A DNA stretch of 45,451 bases, taken from the NCBI GenBank assembly GCA_017354375.1, contig JAFMRC010000007.1:1-45451 (forward strand), given 5' to 3'. The notes under the pieces were generated by a model that saw only the letters and a program-made list of their open reading frames with translations, did no database searches and was not told the origin of the DNA. This DNA comes from Nocardiopsaceae bacterium. Its GTDB lineage: Bacteria > Actinomycetota > Actinomycetes > Streptosporangiales > Streptosporangiaceae. Made by a program: the position numbers and the translations under genes. Below are positions 3 to 30,700 of the stretch, in pieces; position 1 is the first letter of the stretch, and each line of letters starts with the position of its first letter.

Positions 3-3000
3 GCGGGCGGGGAGCTGTCCTACGGGGAGCTGGATGAGCGGGCGAACCGGCTGGCTCGGTACCTGATCGGGCTGGGGGCGGGTCCGGAGCGGGTGGTGGC
101 GCTGGTGCTGCCCCGGGGCGTGACGGCGTGCGTGGCGCTGCTGGCGGTGGCGAAGTCGGGGGCGGCGTACCTGCCGGTGGATCCGGGGCTTCCGGCGGAG
201 CGGATCGCGTTCATGCTGGCGGACGCGGGGCCGGTGCTGGCGGTGACGGATGCGGCGGGCGCGGGCGTGCTCCCGGAGGAGCCCGGGGAGGCCCTGGCGC
301 TCCCGGCACGTGTGCTGGTGGATGATCCGGCCACGATGGCGGCGGTGTCGGAGTGCCCGGGGCGGAGCGTGACGGATGCGGACCGGGTGGCGCCGCTGCG
401 GGTGGGGCATCCGGCGTATGTGATCTATACGTCGGGGTCGACTGGTGCTCCGAAGGGGGTGGCGGTGACGCATGCCGGGCTGGCGGGGCTGGCCGCGGCG
501 GTGGGGGACGGGGTGGGTCCGGGGCACCGGGTGTCGCAGCTGGTGTCGCTGGGTTTCGACGCGTCCGTGCATGAACTGGTGATGGCGTGGTCGACGGGGG
601 CGTGCCTGGCGGTGCCGTCGCCGGATCGGCTGGCGGGGGAGGAACTGGCCGCGGAACTGGAGGCGCTGGGGGTGACGGACGCGGTTATCCCGCTCGCGGT
701 GCTGGCGGGGGTGCCCGCGGGGTCGTTGCCGGGGGTGCGGCGGCTGGTGGTCGGGGGTGAGGTGTGCCCGGCGGGTCTGGTGGAAGTGTGGGCGCCGGGC
801 CGTGTGATGGTGAACGAATACGGGCCGACCGAGGCGACGGTCCTCGCGACGATGACCGGACCATTGTCGGCAGGCAGGTCGGCGGACGGGCTCGGGGACG
901 GGGGTACTCCGCCTATCGGGCGGCCGATCGCGGGGGTGCGTGCGTATGTGCTGGATGAGCGGCTGCGCCCGGTGCCGCTGGGGGTGACGGGGGAACTGTA
1001 CCTGGCTGGACCGGGGCTGGCGCGAGGGTATGCGGGGCGTGCGGGTTCCGCGGCATCGCTGACGGCGGAGCGGTTCGTGGCGTGCCCCTTCTCTGGGGGG
1101 CCGGGGGTCGCCCCCCGGGCGGGTGGAGCCGTCGGCGGCGGGGAGCGGATGTACCGGACCGGTGACCTGGCCCGCTGGCGGGGTGACGGGCAGCTGGAGT
1201 TCGCGGGGCGGGCCGATGATCAGGTGAAGCTGCGCGGGTTCCGGATCGAGCTGGGCGAGGTGACCGCGGCGCTGTCGCGGGTCCCGGGTGTGGGCCGGGC
1301 GGCGGCAGTGCTGCGGGAGGACCGTCCGGGGGACAGGAGGCTGGTGGGGTACGTGGTCCCTGCCGGGGGCGGGCAGCCGGAGACCGGGGAACCCGTGACG
1401 GGCGGACGGGTGCGGGAGTGGGTGGCCGGGCGGTTGCCGGATTACATGGTGCCGTCGGCGGTGGTGGTGCTGGACGCCCTGCCGGTGACGGCCAACGGCA
1501 AGCTGGATAAGGACGCGCTGCCCGCCCCGGACTACCGGGCTGGCGGCGCCGGGGGCCACGTGGCGCCGAGGACGCCGAGGGAGGAGATCCTGGCGCAGTT
1601 GTTCGCCGAAGTCCTGGGGGTGGAGCGGCCCGGGGTGACCGATGGCTTCTTTGACCTGGGCGGCCATTCGCTGCTGGCTGCCAAGCTGGCGGGACGGGTC
1701 CGGTCGGTGCTGGGGGCCGAGGCGGGGATAGGGGATCTGTTCGAGGCTCCGACGGTAGCCGGGCTGGCGGGGCTGCTGGAGCGTCGGGGGGACGGGCATT
1801 CGCGGCCCGCGCTGATGGCGCGGCCGCGGCCGGATCGGGTGCCGCTGTCGCTGGCGCAGCGGCGGCTGTGGTTCCTCAACCGGCTGGAGGGCCAGGGGGC
1901 GGTCTACAACATTCCGGTAGCCGTGCGGCTGACCGGGCCGCTGGACCGGATGGCGCTGGAGCGGGCGCTGGCGGATGTGGTGGCCCGTCACGAGTCGCTG
2001 CGGACCGTGTTTCCCGAAGGAGACGGGTTCCCCGAGACGGGCGGCGCGCCGTGGCAGCGGATGCTGGATCCCGATACGGCGGCGCCGGGTCTGACGGTGG
2101 CAGTGGTCAGCGAGGAGAGGCTGCAGGCGGCCCTGGCGGAAGCGGCGGGAAGAGAGTTCGACCTGACCGTGGATCCGCCGGTGCGGGCGTGGCTGTATGA
2201 GACGGGCGTGGACGAGCATGTGCTGCTGCTGGTGGTGCACCATATCGCGGCCGATGGCTGGTCGATGGAGCCGCTCGGGCGGGATCTGGGCGAGGCGTAC
2301 GCGGCGCGACGCGAGGGCCGCGCCCCTGGGTGGGCGCCGCTGCCGGTGCAGTACGCGGACTACGCGCTGTGGCAGCGGGAGCTGCTAGGGGATGAGGATG
2401 ACCCGTCCAGCCTGGCGGCCGGGCAGCTCGGGTACTGGAGGAAGGCGCTGGAGGGGGTGCCGGAGGAACTCATCCTGCCGTCTGACCGGCCGCGTCCGGC
2501 GGTCGCCTCCTACCGGGGCGGGACGGTGGACTTTACCGTCCCGGCAGAAGTACACGCCGGGCTCGCGGAGGCGGCGCGCCGTCATGGGGTGACGGTGTTC
2601 ATGGTCGTGCAGGCGGCGGTGGCGGCGCTGCTGTCCCGGCTGGGCGCGGGGACCGACATCCCGCTGGGGGCGCCCGCGGCGGGCCGGGGCGATGAGGCGA
2701 CCGGGGATCTGGTCGGGTTCTTCGTGAACACGCTGGTGCTGCGGGCCGACGTGTCGGGGGATCCGGGGTTCGGCGAGCTGCTGGGCCGTGTCCGCCAGGT
2801 CGTGCTGGACGCCCTCGCGCATCAGGACGTGCCGTTCGAGCGGATCGTGGAGGCGGTGAACCCGGAGCGGTCGATGGCCCGTAACCCTCTGTTCCAGGTG
2901 ATGGTGAAGGCCGGCGAGGAGCCCGGCCTGGTGCTGGATCTGCCGGGTCTGGGATGCGCGGCCGAGCCGGTCCGGCTCGGGGTGGCCAAGTTCGACCTGG

Positions 3001-5261
3001 AATTCGACCTGGCCGAGACGCGGGCGGCCGGCGGTTTTCCGGGCGGGATCACCGGAAAGCTGCGGTTCGCCCAGGATCTCTTCGATGAGGCGACGGCGGA
3101 GACGATCGCGGCGCGGCTGACGCGGGTGCTGGAGGCGGTCGCCGCCGATCCGGGGCAGCGGGTCGGCGAACTGGATATCTTCCTGCCTGGGGAGCGGGAG
3201 CAGCTGCTGCGGGAGTCGAACGGCGCCGCCGCCCCGGTGCCGTCGGCCACGCTCCCTGAACTGCTGGGAGCGCAGGCGGCCCGGACGCCGGACGCGGTGG
3301 CGGTGATGAGCGGGGACGAGGTGCTGACCTACGGCGAGCTGGATGAGCGGGCGAACCGGCTGGCGCGGGTGCTGGCAGCCCGGGGGGCCGGGCCGGAGTC
3401 GGTGGTGGCGGTGGCGATGGGCTGGTCGGCGGGGCTGGTGACCGCGCTGCTGGCGGTGCTGAAGGCCGGCGCCGCCTACCTGCCGGTCGATCCGGGCTAC
3501 CCGGCGGAGCGGATCGCGTTCATGCTCGCCGACGCGCGCCCGGCGTGCGTGCTGACCACGTCCGGGGTCGCCCCGGGTCTCCCTGGGCTTGGAGGGGCGC
3601 CGGTGCTGGCCCTCGATGACCCCGCCCTGGCCGCCGAGGTGGCCGCCCAGCCGGGCGGCGGGTTGGACGACGGCGACCGGACGGCGGCGCTGTCGCGGGC
3701 GCACCCGGTGTACGTGATCTACACCTCGGGATCGACCGGACGGCCCAAGGGCGTGATGATCACGCATGACGGGCTGGCGGATTACCTGGCCTGGTGCTGG
3801 CGGGCGTATCCGGAGGTGGCCGGGACCACCGTGCTGCACGCGCCGGTGTCGTTCGACGCCTGGGTGACGCCGTTCTACGGCGCGCTGACCCGCGGCGGCC
3901 GGGTGATCCTGGCGGGGCTTGAGGACAGGCTGGCCGGGCGGGCGGAAGTGTCCTTCCTGAAGGTGACGCCGAGCCATCTGCCGCTGCTGGACGCGGTGGG
4001 GGGCGGGTGCACGGATGACGGGCTGCTGATGGTGGGCGCCGAGGCGCTCAGCGGCGAACAGCTGGCGGAGTGGCGGCGGGCACACCCGGGGATGGCTGTG
4101 GTCAACCACTACGGGCAGACCGAGACCTCGGTGGGCTGCGCGGATTACCGGATCGAGCCGGGGGCGCCCCTGCCGGCGGGTCCGGTCCCGGTCGGGCGGC
4201 CGATGGCCAACGTCGGGTGCTACGTGCTGGATGAGCGGCTGTGCCCGGTTCCGGCGGGGGTAGCGGGAGAACTGTATGTGGCCGGTCCGGGGCTGGCGCG
4301 GGGGTACCTCCGGCGGGCGGGGCTGACCGCCAGCCGGTTCGTGGCCTGCCCCTTCGGGGGTCCGGGTGAGCGGATGTACCGGACCGGGGACGTGGTGCGG
4401 TGGACGGTGCCCTCCGGGTCGGCCTCCCGGGCACCCGCGGCGGGGGTGCTGGAGTTCGTGGGCCGGACCGATGACCAGGTCAGTGTCCGCGGGTTCCGGA
4501 TCGAGCTGGGGGAGGTTCGGTCGGTGCTGGCACGGGCGCCCGGGGTGGGCCAGGCCGCGCTGCTGGTGCGCGAGGACCGGCCGGGCGACAAGCGACTGGT
4601 GGGATACGTGGTCCCGGCCCCGCCCGGGGAATCACCCGGGGAACCGTCCGGGGAATCACCCTGGGAACCGTCCGGGGAATCACCCGGGGAGCCGGCTGGG
4701 GAGCCGGTGACGGACGGCGGGATACGGGAGTGGGCGGCCGGAAGGCTGCCGGACTACATGGTGCCGTCGGCGATCGTAGTGCTGGACAGCCTGCCGCTGA
4801 CGGTCAACGGGAAGCTGGACAAGACCGCGCTGCCCGCCCCGGATTACGAGGCGGATGCCGCCGGGGGCTACGTGGCACCGCGGACGCCGGAGGAAGAGAC
4901 CCTGGTCCGGCTGTTCGCCGAAGTCCTGGGGGCGGAGCGGGTCGGGGTCAACGACAGCTTCTTCGACCTGGGCGGCCATTCGCTGCTGGCGGCCCGGCTG
5001 GTCGGCCGGATCCGGTCGGTGATGGGGGCGGAACTTCGGATCACGACGCTGTTCGAGTCGCCGACCCCCGCCGGGCTGGCCGCCAAGCTGGCCGAGTCGG
5101 CCGCCAAACCTGTCGCCCCGGGCTCCCCGGGCTCCCCAGGCGCGAAGCGGGCACGCCCCGCGCTGCGGCCGATGCGGAGGCCCCGTGCGGATCCGGGGCC
5201 GGATCAGGAGCCGGATCAGGAGCCGGATCCGGGGGCGGCCGGGGAGGGAAAGACCTCCTGA
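3..5261 (+). CDS. Nonribosomal peptide synthetase, A-T-C-A-T (5' end outside window)
   Basis: Cytoplasmic assembly-line enzyme that activates and condenses two amino acids. The frame is open from the first bases, so the N-terminus is missing; 1752 residues are visible. Order: adenylation domain 1 (A3 motif [12 protein letters not shown]10 NGKLDK), carrier 1 ([10 protein letters not shown], phosphopantetheine Ser about residue 556), condensation domain with intact HHIAADG (His at about 746, LCL-like start), adenylation 2 ([11 protein letters not shown]) and carrier 2 (Ser about 1660), then a Pro-rich charged tail. By alignment to GrsA in my head, the pocket residues are DAHVVGEVLK for A1 (no assignment) and DATKMGHVGK for A2, which resembles aspartate codes. 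No epimerase is present. The stop overlaps the start of the next synthetase by one base (TGATG), so the two are surely cotranslated. Domain calls are certain; substrates are inferred. Confidence 0.97.
4623..4706 (+). repeat. In-frame tandem repeat in the second adenylation domain
   Basis: Short units of about 24 bases built on 'ggggaatcaccc' and 'ggggaaccgtcc' repeat here and encode Gly-Glu-Ser-Pro / Gly-Glu-Pro-Ser units. They sit in the flexible C-terminal subdomain just before the conserved segment leading to the A10 motif. The frame is kept, so this is probably slippage expansion of a surface loop. A related Pro-Asp-Gln-Glu run lies at the end of the gene (about 5190-5235). Confidence 0.75.
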
Positions 5262-8200
5262 TGGTGCCCCTGTCGTTCGCCCAGCAGCGGCTGTGGTTCC
5301 TCAGCCGGCTGGAGGGCGTGGAGGCGACGTACAACATTCCTGTGGCGGTGCGGTTGTCCGGCCCGCTGGACCGGGTGGCGCTTGAACGGGCGCTGGCGGA
5401 TGTCGTCGATCGCCACGAGTCGTTGCGGACGGTGTTCCCCGAAACAGGCGGGGACGAAACAGGCGGGGACATGGCGGGCTCCGGGTCCGGTGGAGGACCG
5501 TCGCAGGAGGTGGTAGGCGGGGCGGCCGCGGCTCCGGAGCTGACGGTCATCCAGGTCGGCGAGCGGGAACTGCCCGGAGCGCTGGCGGAAGCGACGCGGG
5601 GAACGTTTGACCTGACCATGGACCTTCCGCTGCGGGCATGGCTTTTCGAGCTGGGCAGCGAAGAACACGTGCTGCTGCTGGTGATGCATCACATCGCCTC
5701 CGACGGCTGGTCGATGGGTCCGCTGGGCCGGGACCTGGGCGAGGCGTACGCGGCACGGCGGGAGGGCCGCGAGCCGGACTGGGAGCCGCTCCCGGTGCAG
5801 TACGCGGACTACGCGCTGTGGCAGCGGGAGCTGCTGGGCGACGAGGACGACCCCGACAGCCTGGCGGCCGAGCAGCTCGGGTACTGGAGCAAGGCGCTGG
5901 AGGGCGTGCCGGAGGAGCTGGCGCTGCCGTTTGACCGGCCGCGCCCGGCGGCCGCGTCCTACCGGGGCGGGACGGTGGACTTCACCGTCCCGGCTCAGGT
6001 GCACGCCGGGCTGGCGGAGGCGGCCCGCCGCCACGGCGCCACGATGTTCATGGTGGTGCAGGCGGCGGTGGCGGCGCTGCTGTCCCGGCTGGGCGCGGGA
6101 ACCGACATTCCGCTGGGGACCCCGGTGGCGGGGCGGGACGAAGAGGCGACCGGGGATCTGGTCGGGTTCTTCGTGAACACGCTGGTGATGCGGGCCGACG
6201 TGTCGGAGGACCCGCGGTTCGGTGAGCTGCTGGGCCGCGTCCGCGAGGTCGTTCTGGAAGCCCTCGAGCATCAGGATCTGCCCTTCGAGCGGATCGTGGA
6301 GGTTCTCAACCCGGTCCGGTCGCTGGCCCGTAACCCGCTTTTCCAGGTGATGGTGGCGATCGGCATCGAGGAGTCTGGGTCGAGGCTGGAGCTTCCGGGA
6401 CTGGCGTGCGAGGAGATGCAGATCAGGCTCGGGGTGGCGAAGTTCGACCTGTCGTTCGACATGCGTGAGGTGCGGGGCCCCGGCGGCGCCCCGCGCGGGA
6501 TCAAGGGCGAGCTGGAGTTCGCCTCGGATGTGTTCGACGAGGCGACGGCGGAGTCGATCGCGGCGCGGCTGACGGGCGTGCTGAAGGCGGTGGCGGCCGA
6601 TCCGCGTCGGCGGGTCAGCGACCTGGACATCTACCTTCCCGGGGAGCGGGAGCGGCTGCTGCGGGAATGGAGCGGCGCCACCGCGTCGGCGGCGTTGCCG
6701 GCGGCGCGGTCACAGACTCTGGCGGGGCTGTTCGAGGCGCAGGCGGCGCGGACGCCGGGTGCGGCGGCGCTGGCGTGGGCGGGCGGGGAGCTGTCCTACC
6801 GTGAGCTGAACGAGCGGGCGAACCGGCTGGCGCGGTACCTGATCGGGCTGGGGGCGGGCCCGGAACGGGTGGTGGCGGTGGCGCTGCCGCGAGGTGCGGC
6901 GGCGGTGACGGCGCTGCTGGCGGTGGCGAAATCGGGGGCGGCGTACATGCCGGTGGACCCGGGGCTTCCGGCGGAGCGGATCGCGTTCATGCTGGCCGAT
7001 GTCGCGCCGGTGCTGACGGTGACCGACGCGGCGACCTCGGCCCTGCTGCCGGAGACCGGGCCCACACGGGTGGTGGCGGATGATCCGGCGACGGCTAAGG
7101 CGGTGGCGGCGTGTCCGGGGCGGGACGTGACCGATGCCGACAGGACCGCCGGGCTGCGGCTGGCGCATGTCGCGTACCTGATCTACACGTCGGGGTCTAC
7201 AGGGACGCCGAAGGGGGTGGCGGTCACGCATGCCGGGCTGGGGAGCCTGGCGGCCACCGTGGGAAGGCTGGGGCTGGGGCCGGGCAGCCGGGTGTCGCAG
7301 CTGGCGGGGCTGGGGTTCGACGCGGTGGTGATGGAGGCGCTGATGGCCTGGCCGACGGGGGCATGCCTGGCGGTTCCGCCACCGGGGAAGCTGGCCGGGG
7401 AGCAGCTCGCGGGAGAGCTGGAGGCTCTCGGGGTCACGCATGTGTCGGTAACGCCCTCGGCACTGGCGGAAGTACCGGCCGGCAGGCTGCCGGGGGTGGA
7501 GTGCTTCCTGGTCGGGGGCGAGGCGTTCGTGCCGGGGCTGGCGCCGGTGTGGGCGGAGGGCCGGGTGCTGGTCAACGCGTACGGCCCGACGGAGTCGACG
7601 GTGATCGCGACGATGAGCGGCCCGCTGTCGGCGACCGGGGCGGTGACCGGGCCGGTTACAGGGTCCGCGACCGGGGCGGTAACCGGATCCGCGACCGGGG
7701 CGGCGAACAGCCCGGCGGGCGCCGTCACCCCGCCGGTCGGGCGGCCGGTCGCTCATACCCGCGTGTACGTGCTGGATGAACGGCTGCGCCCGGTGCCCCC
7801 GGGAGTGGCGGGTGAGGTGTACCTGGCGGGCGCGGGACTGGCCCGGGGATACGCGGGGCGTGCGGCGCTGACCGGGGAGCGGTTCGTGGCGTGCCCGTTC
7901 GGGGATCCCGGGGAGCGGATGTACCGGACCGGCGACCTGGCCCGGTGGAGGCGCGACGGGGACCTGGAGTGCCTGGGCCGGGTCGACGACCAGGTGAAGC
8001 TGCGGGGGATCCGGGTCGAGCTGGGCGAGGTGCGGTCGGCGCTGGCGCGGGTCCCGGGCGTGGGGCAGGCGGCGGTGGTGCTGCGTGAGGACCGGTCCGG
8101 CGATAAGAGGCTCGTGGGGTACGTGGTCCCGGCCGGCAGCGGGAAGAGGGGGGTATGGAGCGGGCAGAGTCACCTACGATCCGTTCGGGATACGGGGGAC

Positions 8201-10936
8201 GGGAAGCCGGGATCCGCGGAGCCCGGGAGACCCGACGAGCCCGTGACGGGCGGGGGGGTTCGGGAGTGGATGGCGGAAAGGCTGCCGGATTACCTGGTGC
8301 CGTCGGCGGTGGTGGTCCTTGACGCGCTGCCGCTGACGGCCAACGGCAAGCTGGACTCCGCCGCGCTGCCCGCCCCGGACTACGGAGCGGGTGCCGCCGG
8401 GGGGTATGTGGCGCCGCGGACGCCAGAGGAAGAGACCGTGGCGGGGGCGTTCGCCCGGGTGCTGGGGGCGGAACGGGCCGGGATACACGACAACTTCTTC
8501 GACCTGGGCGGGCACTCGCTGCTGGCGGCCCGGCTGGCGAACGAGCTGAAGAAGGCCTTCGGGGATGGCACGCGGCCGGTCGGCGTGATGGACGTTTTCA
8601 TGCACCCGACGCCTGCCGGGCTGGCGGAGCTGCTCGCCCGCGACCCCGGCGAGCGGGCGGCGGGACAGGCACTGCTGTATGAGCTGACCCCGCCGGTCGC
8701 GAAGCCGTCGCTGTCGGTGGTGTGCGCCCCGTACGGGGGCGGGAGCGCGAGCGTGTACCAGCCGCTGGCCAGGGCGCTCCCGCCCGGCTGCTCGCTGCAG
8801 GCGATCCAGCCGCCCGGTCACGATCCGGCGCTGGAGTCGCTGGAGTCGCTGGAGGATCCGGGAGAGGGGCAGCCTCCGATCGCGGAGGTGGCCGCGGCGT
8901 GTGCCGCCGAGATCGTCCGGAAGGTGACGGGACCGCTGGTCCTGTACGGGCACAGCGGTCCCGGTGTGGCGCTGGCGGTGGCGATCGCCCTGGAGCTCGA
9001 AGCGGCGGGCCGTCCGGCCGACGCCGTGTACCTGGGAGGCGTGTTCCCCTTCGCCCGGCCGGGCGGGAAGTTCCTGGGGCTGTTCGACGGCGACCGGCTG
9101 CGCGGCGATCGCAGCGTGGCGAACGAGATGATCGGCATGGGCGCCGAAGTCGGGGACCTGGACAAAGACCAGCTCCGGTTCGTGGTCCGGGCCGCCCGCG
9201 CCGACCGGATCGCGGCGCTGGACTACTTCACCGGGCTGCTGGCCTCGCGGCCGCCCGCGCTGCGGGCGCCGGTGATCACGGTGGCGGGCGGCCGGGACCC
9301 GGCCACGAACTACTACCAGGAGCGGTTCAGGGAGTGGGGTTTCCTGTCCGGGCAGGTGGCGGCCGTGGTGATCGACGAGGCGGGCCACTACTTCACCGGG
9401 CACAGAGCGGAGGAGCTGGCGGAGATCCTGACCCGGGTGCATCCGGCGATCGCCGCGGGCGCCGAGGGCAGCCTGACCCGGGAGGAACGCGGCCCCGAGG
9501 CGACGTGGTGGCTGCACGACAGCGTCACCATCCCCGCCGAGCCGACGGCCCGCTGCCGACAGCACGACCCCCAGCGGCAGGGATCCCAGGGATCCGGGAA
9601 CCATGGCCTGGCGCGGTTCCTGGCGGTCGCCCTCGGGCAGCTGGTGTCGGTGACCGGTTCGACGCTGACGGAGTTCGCGCTGCCGGTGTGGATCTACCTG
9701 CAGACCGGGGTGCTGCAGCAGTTCGGGCTGCTCGCGGCCGTCGGGGTGCTGCCCGGCCTGGCCATCGGGCCTTTGGCGGGGGCGATCACCGACCGCTGCG
9801 ACCGGCGGCTGGTCATGATCGCCAGCGGCCTGACCGCCGGGGCCGCCGAAATCGCCCTGCTCGGCCTGGACCAGGCCGGCGGGCTCCGGATCTGGAACAT
9901 CTACGTGCTCGTCGGCGTGCTGTCGGTCGCCGTGGCGTTCCAGCAGGCGGCATACGCCTCGGCGATCCCGCAGATCGTGCCCAAACGGTACCTGGGGCAC
10001 GCCAACGGCATGGTGCAGGCCGGGAACGGGTTCGGGCAGCTCGTGGCGCCGCTGGCCGGCGCCGGGCTGCTGGCGGTGATCGGGCTGAAGGGGATCCTGG
10101 CCGCGGACGTGGCCAGCTACGCCGTCGCGGTCGGCGTCCTGGCGTTCGTCCGGTTCCCGCCGCTGATGGCGCTGGTGCGCACAGAATCGCTGATGGCCGA
10201 ACTGGCGGGCGGTTACCGGTTCATCCTGCGGGACCGGGGCTTCCGTGCGATGATCGGGTTCCTGGCGGTCGGCAACCTGTTTCTCACGCCCTTTTTCATC
10301 CTGATCTCGCCGCTGGTGCTGACCTTCGCGCACCTGACCGACGTCGCGTACGCCACCGCGGCTGCCGGGGTCGGCGGCCTGCTGGCGGGCCTGGTGATGG
10401 GCGTGTGGGGCGGGCCGGGGCGCCGCATGGCCGGCGTCATCGCCTGCACCCTGGGCCTGGGCCTGTGCGCGGTGGTGACAGGGCTGCGGCCGGACCTGCC
10501 GCTGGTCATGACCGGCTGTTTCGGCATGGCCTTCGCGCTCGGCCTGGCCAACGGCATCACCGCGACCATCATCCAGACCAAGGTCCCCCAGCGGCTGCAC
10601 GGCCGCGTGTTCGCGATGAAGATGGCCATCTCCGGAGCGGCGATGCCCTTGGCCTTCGCGGTCATAGCGCCGTACGGGATCAAGGCCCTGACCCCGCTGG
10701 AGGGGCAGGGCAAGGCGATCGGGCTTTTCTACGTGGTCTTCGGCCTCGCCCTGGCGCTCCTCGCGCTCGCCGCCTGGCGGATCCCCGTCCTGGCCCGGTT
10801 CGACGACGCCGTACCCGACGCCCTCCCCGACGATCTCCTGGGCATTGAGGCGATCAAATCGGCGAACCAACCCCTATACCGAACGGATAGTCCTGACTCC
10901 CCAGCACCCCCGGGGCGCCAGGGGCGCTCACGGTAA
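5261..10936 (+). CDS. NRPS-thioesterase-MFS exporter fusion (C-A-T-TE-MFS)
   Basis: A 1891-residue terminal synthetase that adds one residue, releases the peptide and carries its own exporter. Start is the ATG overlapping the previous stop; the reading frame is open further upstream but that part is a shadow of the first synthetase. Order: condensation (HHIASDG near residue 142), adenylation (about 485-1040; YTSGSTGTPKG; pocket residues read as DAMSLGAVIK, a hydrophobic-looking pocket without firm assignment), carrier (Ser 1086), an alpha/beta-hydrolase thioesterase of GrsT type (nucleophile Ser 1232 in GHSGP, probable Asp 1346 and His 1376), then from about 1448 to 1850 an EntS/MFS_3-like permease with motif A around GPLAGAITDRCDRR. 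I see no stop, frameshift or start site between TE and permease. Its tail overlaps the convergent kinase gene by 83 bases. Confidence 0.95.
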   Translation: MVPLSFAQQRLWFLSRLEGVEATYNIPVAVRLSGPLDRVALERALADVVDRHESLRTVFPETGGDETGGDMAGSGSGGGPSQEVVGGAAAAPELTVIQVGERELPGALAEATRGTFDLTMDLPLRAWLFELGSEEHVLLLVMHHIASDGWSMGPLGRDLGEAYAARREGREPDWEPLPVQYADYALWQRELLGDEDDPDSLAAEQLGYWSKALEGVPEELALPFDRPRPAAASYRGGTVDFTVPAQVHAGLAEAARRHGATMFMVVQAAVAALLSRLGAGTDIPLGTPVAGRDEEATGDLVGFFVNTLVMRADVSEDPRFGELLGRVREVVLEALEHQDLPFERIVEVLNPVRSLARNPLFQVMVAIGIEESGSRLELPGLACEEMQIRLGVAKFDLSFDMREVRGPGGAPRGIKGELEFASDVFDEATAESIAARLTGVLKAVAADPRRRVSDLDIYLPGERERLLREWSGATASAALPAARSQTLAGLFEAQAARTPGAAALAWAGGELSYRELNERANRLARYLIGLGAGPERVVAVALPRGAAAVTALLAVAKSGAAYMPVDPGLPAERIAFMLADVAPVLTVTDAATSALLPETGPTRVVADDPATAKAVAACPGRDVTDADRTAGLRLAHVAYLIYTSGSTGTPKGVAVTHAGLGSLAATVGRLGLGPGSRVSQLAGLGFDAVVMEALMAWPTGACLAVPPPGKLAGEQLAGELEALGVTHVSVTPSALAEVPAGRLPGVECFLVGGEAFVPGLAPVWAEGRVLVNAYGPTESTVIATMSGPLSATGAVTGPVTGSATGAVTGSATGAANSPAGAVTPPVGRPVAHTRVYVLDERLRPVPPGVAGEVYLAGAGLARGYAGRAALTGERFVACPFGDPGERMYRTGDLARWRRDGDLECLGRVDDQVKLRGIRVELGEVRSALARVPGVGQAAVVLREDRSGDKRLVGYVVPAGSGKRGVWSGQSHLRSVRDTGDGKPGSAEPGRPDEPVTGGGVREWMAERLPDYLVPSAVVVLDALPLTANGKLDSAALPAPDYGAGAAGGYVAPRTPEEETVAGAFARVLGAERAGIHDNFFDLGGHSLLAARLANELKKAFGDGTRPVGVMDVFMHPTPAGLAELLARDPGERAAGQALLYELTPPVAKPSLSVVCAPYGGGSASVYQPLARALPPGCSLQAIQPPGHDPALESLESLEDPGEGQPPIAEVAAACAAEIVRKVTGPLVLYGHSGPGVALAVAIALELEAAGRPADAVYLGGVFPFARPGGKFLGLFDGDRLRGDRSVANEMIGMGAEVGDLDKDQLRFVVRAARADRIAALDYFTGLLASRPPALRAPVITVAGGRDPATNYYQERFREWGFLSGQVAAVVIDEAGHYFTGHRAEELAEILTRVHPAIAAGAEGSLTREERGPEATWWLHDSVTIPAEPTARCRQHDPQRQGSQGSGNHGLARFLAVALGQLVSVTGSTLTEFALPVWIYLQTGVLQQFGLLAAVGVLPGLAIGPLAGAITDRCDRRLVMIASGLTAGAAEIALLGLDQAGGLRIWNIYVLVGVLSVAVAFQQAAYASAIPQIVPKRYLGHANGMVQAGNGFGQLVAPLAGAGLLAVIGLKGILAADVASYAVAVGVLAFVRFPPLMALVRTESLMAELAGGYRFILRDRGFRAMIGFLAVGNLFLTPFFILISPLVLTFAHLTDVAYATAAAGVGGLLAGLVMGVWGGPGRRMAGVIACTLGLGLCAVVTGLRPDLPLVMTGCFGMAFALGLANGITATIIQTKVPQRLHGRVFAMKMAISGAAMPLAFAVIAPYGIKALTPLEGQGKAIGLFYVVFGLALALLALAAWRIPVLARFDDAVPDALPDDLLGIEAIKSANQPLYRTDSPDSPAPPGRQGRSR
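7631..7716 (+). repeat. In-frame repeat insertion in the third adenylation domain
   Basis: Units based on 'accggggcggt' and 'ggatccgcg' encode a Thr-Gly-Ala-Val / Thr-Gly-Ser-Ala stretch inserted between the conserved ATMSGPLS segment and the PVGRPV segment. The sister domain in the first synthetase has a different, shorter loop at the same place. The frame is preserved and the catalytic motifs on both sides are intact. Confidence 0.7.
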
Positions 10937-11837
10937 TCATGCTGGTCAGCGTGAGTCCCGCCTTTTCCAGGCGGTCGGCGCAGCGCTCGGCGCGGGCCTC
11001 GGTACCGGGGCGGCGGGGATCGAAGATGACCCCCGCCACGGTGCCGCTGTGGGCGACCTGAACACCGCACCCGCCACTGGAACCGCACGCATCCAGCAGG
11101 AACTCCAGCGCCGGGTTGGGCAGGAAGCGCTGGTTGATGAGCGCGCTGGCCGTCGCGACCCGGCCGACCCCGGCCGCGTCGCCGGAGGCCACGGCGGACC
11201 GGAGCTCGGACAACAGCACGGTGAAGGTTTCGACGTCGGCGGCAGTATAGGCGGCGGGCTCCAGCGCCAGCGTGTCGATGCCGCCGACGCCCGGGGCGGT
11301 CACGCAGCCGACCACGGTCAGCCATGGAAGCTGGAGGCCGAGCGTTTCCAGCACCACCCCCTCGCGCTGGGCGAACAAGACCGCGGCGTCGTCGATCATG
11401 ATGGGATCGGACGCGGTCTCGGCCCGGACAGCGATCCGGCCGATGTCGGCCGGTGAAGGCGTCAGGCCGTGATAGGCGGCGATGGCCCGGATCGCCGAGG
11501 TCACGTCCGCGGTGGAGGATCCCATGCCGATGCCCCTGGGCACCGTGGAGCTAACCTCGATGCGGCCGCCGGTCATCGGCGAGTGCGCACTGGCGAATTC
11601 TTCCATCGAGATGGCCGCGGCCCGCTGGGCCTTGGACATCCCGGGCAGGCAGAGTATCTCCGTGCGGGCGGCATCGGGGTAGAAGGTGGCGCGGCTGCCC
11701 CGTTCGGGGCAGGGAAGGGTGACAAGCGCCCGCCGCGGCGTGCCCTCGTGGTCACGGAAAGCCCCTTGCAGGATCTCGCCGTGATGGGCAGGGGCGGATC
11801 CCGTGCTGGGTGCGGGGCCCGCCGCGGTGGCCGTCAT
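10854..11837 (-). CDS. GHMP-family kinase, PduX/L-threonine kinase-like
   Basis: Probably phosphorylates a small hydroxy amino acid such as L-threonine or L-serine using ATP. The visible marks are an N-terminal HGEILQG motif, the GHMP glycine-rich ATP loop (PRGIGMGSSTAD) and a C-terminal AHSGTVAGVIF segment typical of PduX-like kinases. I chose the ATG at 11837 because it overlaps the stop of the upstream PLP gene as ATGA, giving 327 residues; a longer frame to 11897 would lie inside that gene. Pairing with a cysteine-synthase-like enzyme recalls the threonine kinase / PLP enzyme pair of 2,3-diaminobutyrate formation in pacidamycin-type clusters (from memory). Product assignment is inferred. 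The 3' end overlaps the NRPS tail on the other strand. Confidence 0.82.
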   Translation of the reverse strand: MTATAAGPAPSTGSAPAHHGEILQGAFRDHEGTPRRALVTLPCPERGSRATFYPDAARTEILCLPGMSKAQRAAAISMEEFASAHSPMTGGRIEVSSTVPRGIGMGSSTADVTSAIRAIAAYHGLTPSPADIGRIAVRAETASDPIMIDDAAVLFAQREGVVLETLGLQLPWLTVVGCVTAPGVGGIDTLALEPAAYTAADVETFTVLLSELRSAVASGDAAGVGRVATASALINQRFLPNPALEFLLDACGSSGGCGVQVAHSGTVAGVIFDPRRPGTEARAERCADRLEKAGLTLTSMITVSAPGAPGVLGSQDYPFGIGVGSPI

Positions 11838-12811
11838 GGCGTGGCGGCTCCGGCCTGGCCATGGACCTTGCGCGCCAGGACGTCCATGTTCTTCCAAGCC
11901 GTGTCTCCCGAGATCAGCAGGGTGTCACCGCGCAGCTCGCCCGATTCGGCGGCGCGCAGGGCCGCCGCGACAACCGCGTAGGTCTGCAGGCCGGTGAACA
12001 GGCCGGCCAGCGACAGATGCCGGGCGACGGCGACCGCCTCGCCTTCCGATACCTGGACGGAGGAATCAAAGACCTTGCGGGTAAATCCCTCGGCGATGAA
12101 CGGCGTCCGGTAGTCGCCGTCGACGAGCGACGCGGTACCCGGCAGCCGCGTGCCGGAGGCTGCCTCGACGGCGATCACCTTGATCTGGTCGTCGACACGC
12201 TTGAGATAGCGGCCGACGCCGAGCAGGGTGCCCCCGGACCCGACCGAGCCGACCACGGCCGTGAGCCCCGGCAACTGCGACAGGATCTCCGGCCCGGTTC
12301 CCATCTCATGAGCGATCGCGTTATTCGGGTTATGGAGCTGGTCGAGGAAATACCAGCGGGAAGGATCGGACCGGGCGATCTCGGCGCAATAACGGTTACC
12401 TTCGATGGTGAATTCACCTTGCGTCTCGACCGAGGCGCCGAAATACTCCATGAAGAATCGCTTTTCAGTTGTGAGTTTGCTTGAGCTCACAATAGTGACG
12501 CCGACACCGAGAATGCGTCCGAAGTACGCCAGGCTGCAGCCCATGTTGCCGCTGGAGGAATCGATGACAGACAGTGACGGATCCCATCCTGGATCGCTGA
12601 TCATCGCCCGGAGCATGGCAACGCAGGCCCGATCCTTGACGCTTCCGGTCGGATTGGTTCCTTCCAGCTTCACGAACAGGCGGCACGGCGAGCCAGCGGG
12701 AAGCGGGATCTGCCACAGCGGCGTGTTGCCTACCCACCCGGCCATGGCTTCAAAGCGCGTGACCGAACCGCTGGGAACATCGCCGAGGAGGGGGATTCCG
12801 GGTGTCTCCAT
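11834..12811 (-). CDS. Cysteine-synthase-like PLP enzyme (beta-replacement)
   Basis: Fold-type II PLP enzyme of 325 residues, close in outline to cysteine synthases and SbnA-like enzymes. Visible features are the PLP lysine in SVKDR preceded by KLEGTNPTG, the substrate loop SSGNMG, and the phosphate-binding GSVGSGGT. Such enzymes replace an activated beta-substituent (O-acetyl or O-phospho) by a nucleophile. With the coupled kinase downstream it would use an O-phosphoamino acid made by that kinase, giving a beta-substituted amino acid (for example 2,3-diaminobutyrate after loss of a carrier group) for the NRPS. It is divergent from the mbtH operon, with a shared intergenic region of about 180 bases. 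The reaction is inference; the family is clear. Confidence 0.85.
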   Translation of the reverse strand: METPGIPLLGDVPSGSVTRFEAMAGWVGNTPLWQIPLPAGSPCRLFVKLEGTNPTGSVKDRACVAMLRAMISDPGWDPSLSVIDSSSGNMGCSLAYFGRILGVGVTIVSSSKLTTEKRFFMEYFGASVETQGEFTIEGNRYCAEIARSDPSRWYFLDQLHNPNNAIAHEMGTGPEILSQLPGLTAVVGSVGSGGTLLGVGRYLKRVDDQIKVIAVEAASGTRLPGTASLVDGDYRTPFIAEGFTRKVFDSSVQVSEGEAVAVARHLSLAGLFTGLQTYAVVAAALRAAESGELRGDTLLISGDTAWKNMDVLARKVHGQAGAATP

Positions 12812-18207: not shown

Positions 18208-19149
18208 TCAGGATGACAGACTCCGGCCTGCCAGCCGCCTGTCGGCGAGCGAGAGCCAGTCGATAACGGTCGCGCAGCGCGCGGGGTCTTCGGTGAGGCC
18301 GAGGTCCAGGCCCCACAGCTGGTAGTCAACGGCCCGCAGCAGCGTCCAGCCGCGCGCCAGTTCCGCGTCGAGCCCGGCCTCGTCCACCAGGGCGTCGAAC
18401 CGTCGCCGCAGCCCGGCCGACCCGCCCGCCTCCTCCAGCCTGCGCCACAGCAGCGGTGCGAGGCCGAACTCAGCGTCGCCGAGCATCACCTTCGGATCGA
18501 TCACCAGCCAGGGCTCACGCTCCCCTGCCAGCACGTTCTGGTAGTGCATGTCCCGGTTGGCAAGCAACCCTCCGGCACTCGGGGCGAGCGCGGTGGCTAC
18601 TTCGACCGCCGCGTCCAGGTCGCGCTCCGGAAACGGCCGCCCCGTGGCCCGCCATAGCGCCGGCAGTTCCGCGGCCAGTTCCAGCGCCCACTGCCGGAGC
18701 CTGGGGACCGGGCGCGCGTGCCACTCCGCTGGCACGGGTACGGCCAGCCGCCGCAGCAATCGCCCGGCGACCGGCACGGCGACGCTCAGGTCCGCATCCG
18801 CCAGGCGGCGCTGCGGATCGAGCCATTCGAGCAGCAGCGCCCCCGCCGCGACGTCCGCGTCGAGGAGCCGCACGGCGCCGCCGCCATTCCACAGCGCAAG
18901 CACCGCCGCTTCGTTCACCGTCTCGTCGTCGACCCACGACACTTTGAGCGCACACCGGGCATCACCGTGAAGCACCGGCAGCACAAGCGCCATGTAGCCG
19001 TGCATAGGATCGCCGTTTACCCGCAGACCCCATCGCACGCACAGTTCGGCGACTAGCTCCGGAAGCCGCGCCAGCCATGGCCGGGCAGCCTCGCCTTCAC
19101 GGGTCAAGGTGTCGGCCGCGAATCTCTCCGGCACGCTGATGACGGTCAC
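18208..19149 (-). CDS. Aminoglycoside/hydroxyurea phosphotransferase family protein, APH(6)-like
   Basis: 313-residue kinase of the APH(6)/hydroxyurea phosphotransferase family (PF04655). These enzymes phosphorylate streptomycin-type antibiotics or unknown small molecules. Visible landmarks are the nucleotide-fold Lys in CALKVSW, LLEWLDP, and the catalytic loop NRDMHYQNVL with the metal motif VIDPK about 14 residues later. The loop has NRD where the family usually has HGD, so the first His is replaced by Asn. The GTG start has AGGAG four to five bases upstream, which overlaps the end of a nucleotidyltransferase remnant. Actual substrate unknown; resistance is only a possibility. Confidence 0.85.
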   Translation of the reverse strand: MTVISVPERFAADTLTREGEAARPWLARLPELVAELCVRWGLRVNGDPMHGYMALVLPVLHGDARCALKVSWVDDETVNEAAVLALWNGGGAVRLLDADVAAGALLLEWLDPQRRLADADLSVAVPVAGRLLRRLAVPVPAEWHARPVPRLRQWALELAAELPALWRATGRPFPERDLDAAVEVATALAPSAGGLLANRDMHYQNVLAGEREPWLVIDPKVMLGDAEFGLAPLLWRRLEEAGGSAGLRRRFDALVDEAGLDAELARGWTLLRAVDYQLWGLDLGLTEDPARCATVIDWLSLADRRLAGRSLSS

Positions 19150-29503: not shown

Positions 29504-30700
29504 GTGAAAGATCCGATTCCGGCGCGGCGCCGCGGGTGGCCGCGTTCCCTGGCGCTGCTGGCGGTCGTCGTGTTCCTGCTGGTGCTCGCGGTCGCGACGT
29601 TTACGCTGTCGTACAGCGGTATCCACGTGATCGCGCTGCGCGCGGGCATGTCGGCGCACCTGGCGCGCTTCTACCCTGGGCTGCTGGACGCGGCGCTCGT
29701 GATCGCCTGCCTGGCCGCCGTCTTGCTGCACGACGGCAGGTGGTGGGCGCGCTGGTACGCCTGGCTGGCGGTCATCCTGATCGTCGCGGTCGGCGGCGGG
29801 GCCAACGCGCTGCACGCGATGAACGTGACGCTCCCGCACCGGCAGACCGCGGGCGCGGTAGCGGCGGCGCCGTGGGTGCTGCTCCTGCTGGCGTTCAGCC
29901 TGTGGCTGACGATCCTCCGCCAGTCCCGCTCCCGGCGCGACGTCCCCAGGCAGGCGCGGGAGACGCCGCAAGCCCGGCAGACGCAGACGGTGCCCCTGGC
30001 CACGATGCTCCAAGACCCGGAACCCCGGGACCTGGAACCCCAAGCTCCTGCACCCCAGGACCCGGAACCCCGAGACCCAGACCCTCAAGCTCCGGAACCC
30101 CAGGCTCCGGAGCCTCAAGCTGTGGAACCCCAGGAAACAGGGTTCCACGACATACCGCCGCAGGAACCGGTGACTCGGGAAACGGTAGCCCTGAACGTAG
30201 CGCAAGCTCCCCCGGATCAAGCGCCCCATCCAGACCAAGCGTCCCAGGACACGGCACAGGTACTGGCGGCCCCGGTAGCGCCGCCCACGGTTCCGGTTAT
30301 AGAGCCGCCCCAGGCAGAATCGACAGAAACCCAGGTAACGGAAGCAGAGTCAGCAGAAGCAGCCGACGACGTTCCCGTCGGCGACGATGCGCCGATCGCG
30401 GACGCGACGCCGGTCGCGGATATAGCGCCAGTCATGGACCCGGCGCCGACCGTGGACGCGGTGACGGTCACGGACGCGGCGCCGGCCGACGAACAGGTCC
30501 CGGCGCCGGCCCCGTCGCGGCCACGTGATTACTGGGATATCGAGGATGGGGAAGAAGATCCTGGCGAGGGCTATTCGCCGAGCGATATCGCCCCCCAGGC
30601 GCCGCCGCTTCCCGACCCGCCGCCGCGACTGAACCGCCCGCGATCCACCCCCGTTCCCCCCGAGGAAGACGTTCTTCCCGAAGAAGACCCCGGACAATGA
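29504..30700 (+). CDS. DUF2637 membrane protein with Pro/Glu-rich tail
   Basis: 398 residues. Four membrane helices in the first about 140 residues (LLAVVVFLLVLAVATF; LLDAALVIACLAAVLL; WLAVILIVAVGGGANAL; APWVLLLLAFSLWLTIL) match the DUF2637 (SpdB-like) family found on actinomycete plasmids and integrative elements. The cytoplasmic remainder is low-complexity: Pro-Glu repeats (about residues 170-220), then Asp/Ala-rich repeats ending in a Pro-rich stretch. In related elements such proteins are linked to plasmid spread; here no transfer gene is close. GTG start at 29504 with no strong ribosome site. The gene ends at a strong hairpin. Confidence 0.75.
   Translation: MKDPIPARRRGWPRSLALLAVVVFLLVLAVATFTLSYSGIHVIALRAGMSAHLARFYPGLLDAALVIACLAAVLLHDGRWWARWYAWLAVILIVAVGGGANALHAMNVTLPHRQTAGAVAAAPWVLLLLAFSLWLTILRQSRSRRDVPRQARETPQARQTQTVPLATMLQDPEPRDLEPQAPAPQDPEPRDPDPQAPEPQAPEPQAVEPQETGFHDIPPQEPVTRETVALNVAQAPPDQAPHPDQASQDTAQVLAAPVAPPTVPVIEPPQAESTETQVTEAESAEAADDVPVGDDAPIADATPVADIAPVMDPAPTVDAVTVTDAAPADEQVPAPAPSRPRDYWDIEDGEEDPGEGYSPSDIAPQAPPLPDPPPRLNRPRSTPVPPEEDVLPEEDPGQ

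Follow-up and report, generated by a model that had tools for sequence, protein, structure and literature searches.

An NRPS termination module and an MFS permease are encoded as one open frame in the window analyzed here (a stretch of DNA of 45,451 nucleotides from a Nocardiopsaceae bacterium), and comparison with homologous sequences indicates that this thioesterase (TE)-MFS fusion is real, old, conserved, and common in Streptosporangiales. We consider it likely that the protein is a membrane-anchored termination module that releases its peptide beside its own exporter, both being parts of one translated polypeptide. Export is usually regarded as a separate step following peptide synthesis. 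A covalent synthetase-exporter that has long been kept, in about two fifths of the surveyed Streptosporangiales genomes, makes a coupling of release to export for self-protection testable.

Organization of the fusion gene and its protein

The fusion gene comprises a single open frame of 1,891 amino acids at positions 5261 to 10936 of the forward strand, from the ATG at 5261 to the TAA at 10936. The frame's start at 4730 is merely mechanical, and residues are numbered from the ATG at 5261. This ATG shares bases (TGATG) with the stop codon of an upstream NRPS gene (3..5261, forward strand) that is truncated by the contig start. The upstream gene has the Pfam architecture A-PCP-C-A-PCP, and the code of its second A domain is DATKMGHVG-, which is Asp-like. 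Further condensation domains were identified on other contigs of the same genome (C285, C435, C520, C542, and C524).

Pfam searches at curated cut-offs revealed the following order of domains along the chain, all on the forward strand: condensation (residues 1-467, 5261..6661; PF00668, 298 bits), adenylation (residues 491-970, 6731..8170; PF00501 at 491-864), carrier (residues 1059-1125, 8435..8635; PF00550), thioesterase (residues 1153-1390, 8717..9430; PF00975), and MFS permease (residues 1452-1837, 9614..10771; PF07690, 84 bits, at 1457-1795, with hydropathy and fold in agreement). With its C, A, carrier, and TE domains in one chain, the protein contains an NRPS termination module with a type I TE, while the MFS_1 profile, 12 segments, motif A, and an MFS fold identify its C-terminal part as an MFS permease. 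The 10-residue code of the A domain, obtained by alignment, is DAMSLGAVIK, which yielded no substrate assignment. The carrier Ser1086 (8516-8518), the TE triad Ser1232/Asp1346/His1376 with the elbow GHSGPG, and motif A (GAITDRCDRR at 1507-1516) are located where an earlier note, made from the sequence of this DNA, had placed them, and the full permease that it described is borne out by twelve hydrophobic segments between 1449 and 1837 in the hydropathy profile. A C-terminal tail (10772..10933, forward strand) carries an RFDDxVPDAxPDDL-type motif that is common in the main fused clade.

The claim that neither a stop nor a start separates the TE from the permease also holds. The frame is open, GC3 is 0.89-0.97 in the fusion frame and stays high across the TE-permease junction, and no convincing internal start preceded by a good ribosome-binding site was detected near the junction in the window. 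An internal translation start for the window's permease was thus rejected. In many relatives, an in-frame ATG is located immediately ahead of TM1 (PSMRRF), with a weak AGGAGG match upstream, so that some separate permease could arise there; this ATG is absent from the window. The linker between the two domains (residues 1391-1451, 61 amino acids; 9431..9613, forward strand) contains a recurrent TWWL-type motif at 1415-1418, and a strand is present at 1416-1423 in the predicted structure. Among fused relatives the linker is 21-134 amino acids long and poorly conserved, although a TWWL-like segment is often present, as is a short motif preceding TM1. In close pairs of sequences, dN/dS of the permease (0.07-0.28) resembles that of the TE and A domains and that of the linker is 0.26-0.85; purifying selection acts on the permease and is looser on the linker.

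The permease model adopts a full MFS fold of the antiporter type (matches of up to Z 38.7 across 367 residues). One predicted structure recovers the TE and MFS folds together (pLDDT 84); its list of structure matches is taken up by those to the permease and is hardly informative about the TE. A sequence search of solved structures with the permease part alone as query returned no match. In profile searches, PF00975 and the generic MFS_1 (PF07690) both exceeded their cut-offs on the one protein, whereas MFS_3 (PF05977; 21.9 versus 27 bits) and the H+ antiporter family TIGR00900 (175.3 versus 319.6 bits) fell below theirs, and no specific transporter family was reached at cut-off. The permease had been called EntS-like, a term that is acceptable only loosely.

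Distribution and origin of the fusion

Permease homologs at E<=1e-40 were identified in 144 of 347 Streptosporangiales genomes, where almost all of the listed frames were 1,700-4,463 amino acids long, and in 23 of 395 genomes drawn evenly across the class. Matches to the permease query among relatives shared ~45-56% identity and nearly all resided in frames of at least 1,700 amino acids. Below these came some fused forms at 37-40% and then separate frames of ~450 amino acids at ~30%. Full-length homologs with permease identity of ~44% or more have the architecture C-A-PCP-TE-MFS in one frame. Fusions were detected in Streptosporangiaceae, Trebonia, Micromonosporaceae (Dactylosporangium and Micromonospora), Streptomyces, and Embleya, including single-contig assemblies and the complete chromosome of Dactylosporangium vinaceum. 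Of the few shorter frames inspected among the matches listed, two were cut by contig ends, one had a frameshift in its C part, and one was a decayed half permease.

This distribution bears on whether two genes were fused by an assembly or sequencing error. The source genome is an 87%-complete assembly in 580 contigs, which would favor such an error, and the earlier note had itself named a sequencing error that hid a stop or frameshift as something that would overturn its reading of one polypeptide. However, dozens of independent genomes, complete ones among them, hold the same TE-MFS fusion. Because of this recurrence the fusion is not a sequencing accident, and we regard the chance of an assembly error as negligible; the homologs rule it out.

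In the permease tree, all fused forms fall to one side of a single branch (SH-aLRT 98) and separate permeases fall to the other. The tree was computed with a quick method and is unrooted; the fused or separate state changes once on it. Most of the separate permease relatives examined adjoin NRPS genes, as on plasmid C of Trichormus, where the relative lies 15 bases downstream of an NRPS gene. The single branch and the location of separate relatives beside NRPS genes suggest that the fusion probably arose once, when a cluster exporter became attached to a terminal module, and that it has persisted since. Since the tree is unrooted, we infer rather than observe that the change proceeded from separate to fused.

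Thioesterase type, products, and neighboring genes

The TE had been described as GrsT-like, a label that our comparisons do not uphold. GrsT and type II enzymes are separate and act in trans, whereas this TE is in cis, and its nearest solved relative is ObiF1 (6n8e; E 4.5e-24), which outscores RifR and the surfactin type II enzyme by a wide margin. ObiF1 also ranked first, and SulM third, among fold matches to the modeled TE. By its closest sequence and fold neighbors the TE is thus ObiF/SulM-like, although its nucleophile is Ser1232 rather than the Cys of that type. Among 40 fused sequences, 38 have a Cys nucleophile, mostly within GHCGxG; Ser occurs in the window and in one relative (L086). 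Across 11 genomes, every one of the 24 strong TE matches (E<1e-39) lay inside a permease fusion, and weaker, separate TE matches began at E 4e-31.

ObiF1, which forms a beta-lactone, is reported to use a catalytic Cys and to have its Asp on strand 6, like RifR; a Cys-to-Ser exchange leaves an enzyme that mainly hydrolyzes (PMC6668435). By analogy, peptide release by the Ser enzyme of the window may differ from that by its Cys relatives. The combination of a GHCGxG ObiF-like thioesterase with an MFS permease provides a sequence handle for clusters with unusual release chemistry.

Terminal A domains of relatives have the codes DFTKIGHVGK, DVWHxSLxDK, and DLYNxSLIWK, which by the usual code we take to specify Asp, Ser, and Cys, respectively. 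Because these codes differ among relatives, the fusion is not restricted to a single product, and a permease that accompanies such varied terminal residues would need to accept varied products. In one sub-clade (L093, L096, and L110-L114), the architecture is C-A-PCP-TE-MFS-APH, with a kinase of the aminoglycoside phosphotransferase family following the permease in the same frame. Our guess is that this attached kinase might mask the product ahead of export.

Downstream of the fusion gene, a convergent GHMP kinase gene (10854-11834, reverse strand) overlaps its 3' end by 83 bases. The gene at 11834-12811 (reverse strand) encodes a PALP enzyme whose relatives include cysteine synthase and SbnA; together with the kinase it may supply an unusual amino acid. 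Between 13206 and 15622 (forward strand), a 4HPPD-family gene overlaps a class I/II aminotransferase gene. The former could be a hydroxymandelate synthase, and a role of the pair in hydroxyphenylglycine supply is possible. The window also contains an APH(6)/hydroxyurea-type kinase gene that scores under the APH_6 equivalog cut-off (18208-19149, reverse strand) and a tRNA-Arg (ccg) gene (30017-30094, reverse strand).

Proposed coupling of release and export, and comparison with known systems

The most economical reading of the domain arrangement is that release and export would be carried out by the same membrane-tethered protein. The chain would stay intact in the cell, reside in the membrane, and export the product of its own assembly line. 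The 12-helix permease, probably an H+ antiporter, would anchor the last NRPS module at the membrane, the thioesterase would free the completed peptide close to where the exporter opens to the cytoplasm, and the exporter would then pump it out, which would lessen intracellular exposure to the product. Direct hand-over from the TE to the pump is conceivable, though we put this forward more cautiously.

Alternatively, the permease might serve mainly as a membrane anchor or scaffold that gathers the NRPS proteins of the line, with another pump exporting the product. A structural anchor would also be under purifying selection, and the cluster is truncated at the contig start, so that other exporters may be missing. 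Nevertheless, the permease retains a complete fold of the antiporter type, together with motif A and its twelve hydrophobic segments. Among the downstream ORFs covered by Pfam scans, no second transporter turned up, and the separate relatives beside NRPS genes resemble ordinary cluster exporters; these findings make a mere anchor unlikely. Cleavage of the translated chain in the TE-MFS linker, so that a soluble synthetase parts from an exporter and the fusion sets only their ratio, would suit a linker with poor conservation and a variable, often considerable length, but we consider it quite improbable: the recurrent TWWL-type segment and the motif preceding TM1 suggest that the joint matters, as does the finding that no intact split gene was seen in the main clade. 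An intact, membrane-anchored module that releases its peptide beside its own exporter is thus our preferred reading. A broader and rather doubtful extension is that the fusions form a lineage of such modules in which ObiF-type Cys thioesterases make strained or reactive products that are handed to the attached exporter and that, in the sub-clade with the attached kinase, could be masked before export.

NRPS/MFS product names exist in databases. Our search of open-access literature returned no paper on an NRPS-MFS or TE-MFS fusion like that of the window and no experimental account of one; in the papers it did return, TE-MFS appears only in fungal domain listings (PMC9495618; PMC11057048).

Several known systems resemble parts of the fusion. 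DHA3-type drug-H+ antiporters of the MefA and EntS kind (TIGR00900) are the best specific match to the permease and share motif A and 12 segments, but the score is under the cut-off and the window's permease is fused to an NRPS. On plasmid C of Trichormus variabilis a homologous permease comes straight after an NRPS gene; there, however, two genes are involved and the TE has the ordinary Ser-type motif GWSMGG. The TE of SulM, which forms the beta-lactam of sulfazecin and belongs to the Cys-type TE class (PMC11298585), matches the window TE in fold, whereas no permease is reported for SulM and its Gln-Cys-Asn motif is absent from the window protein. ObiF1, the obafluorin NRPS, is similar in that its triad Asp and His align with those of the fusion TE and in that its TE, too, has an extra domain C-terminal to it in the same chain (PMC6668435). 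It differs in its nucleophile, Cys as opposed to the Ser of the window protein, and in the extra domain itself, which is MbtH-like in ObiF1 and a permease here.
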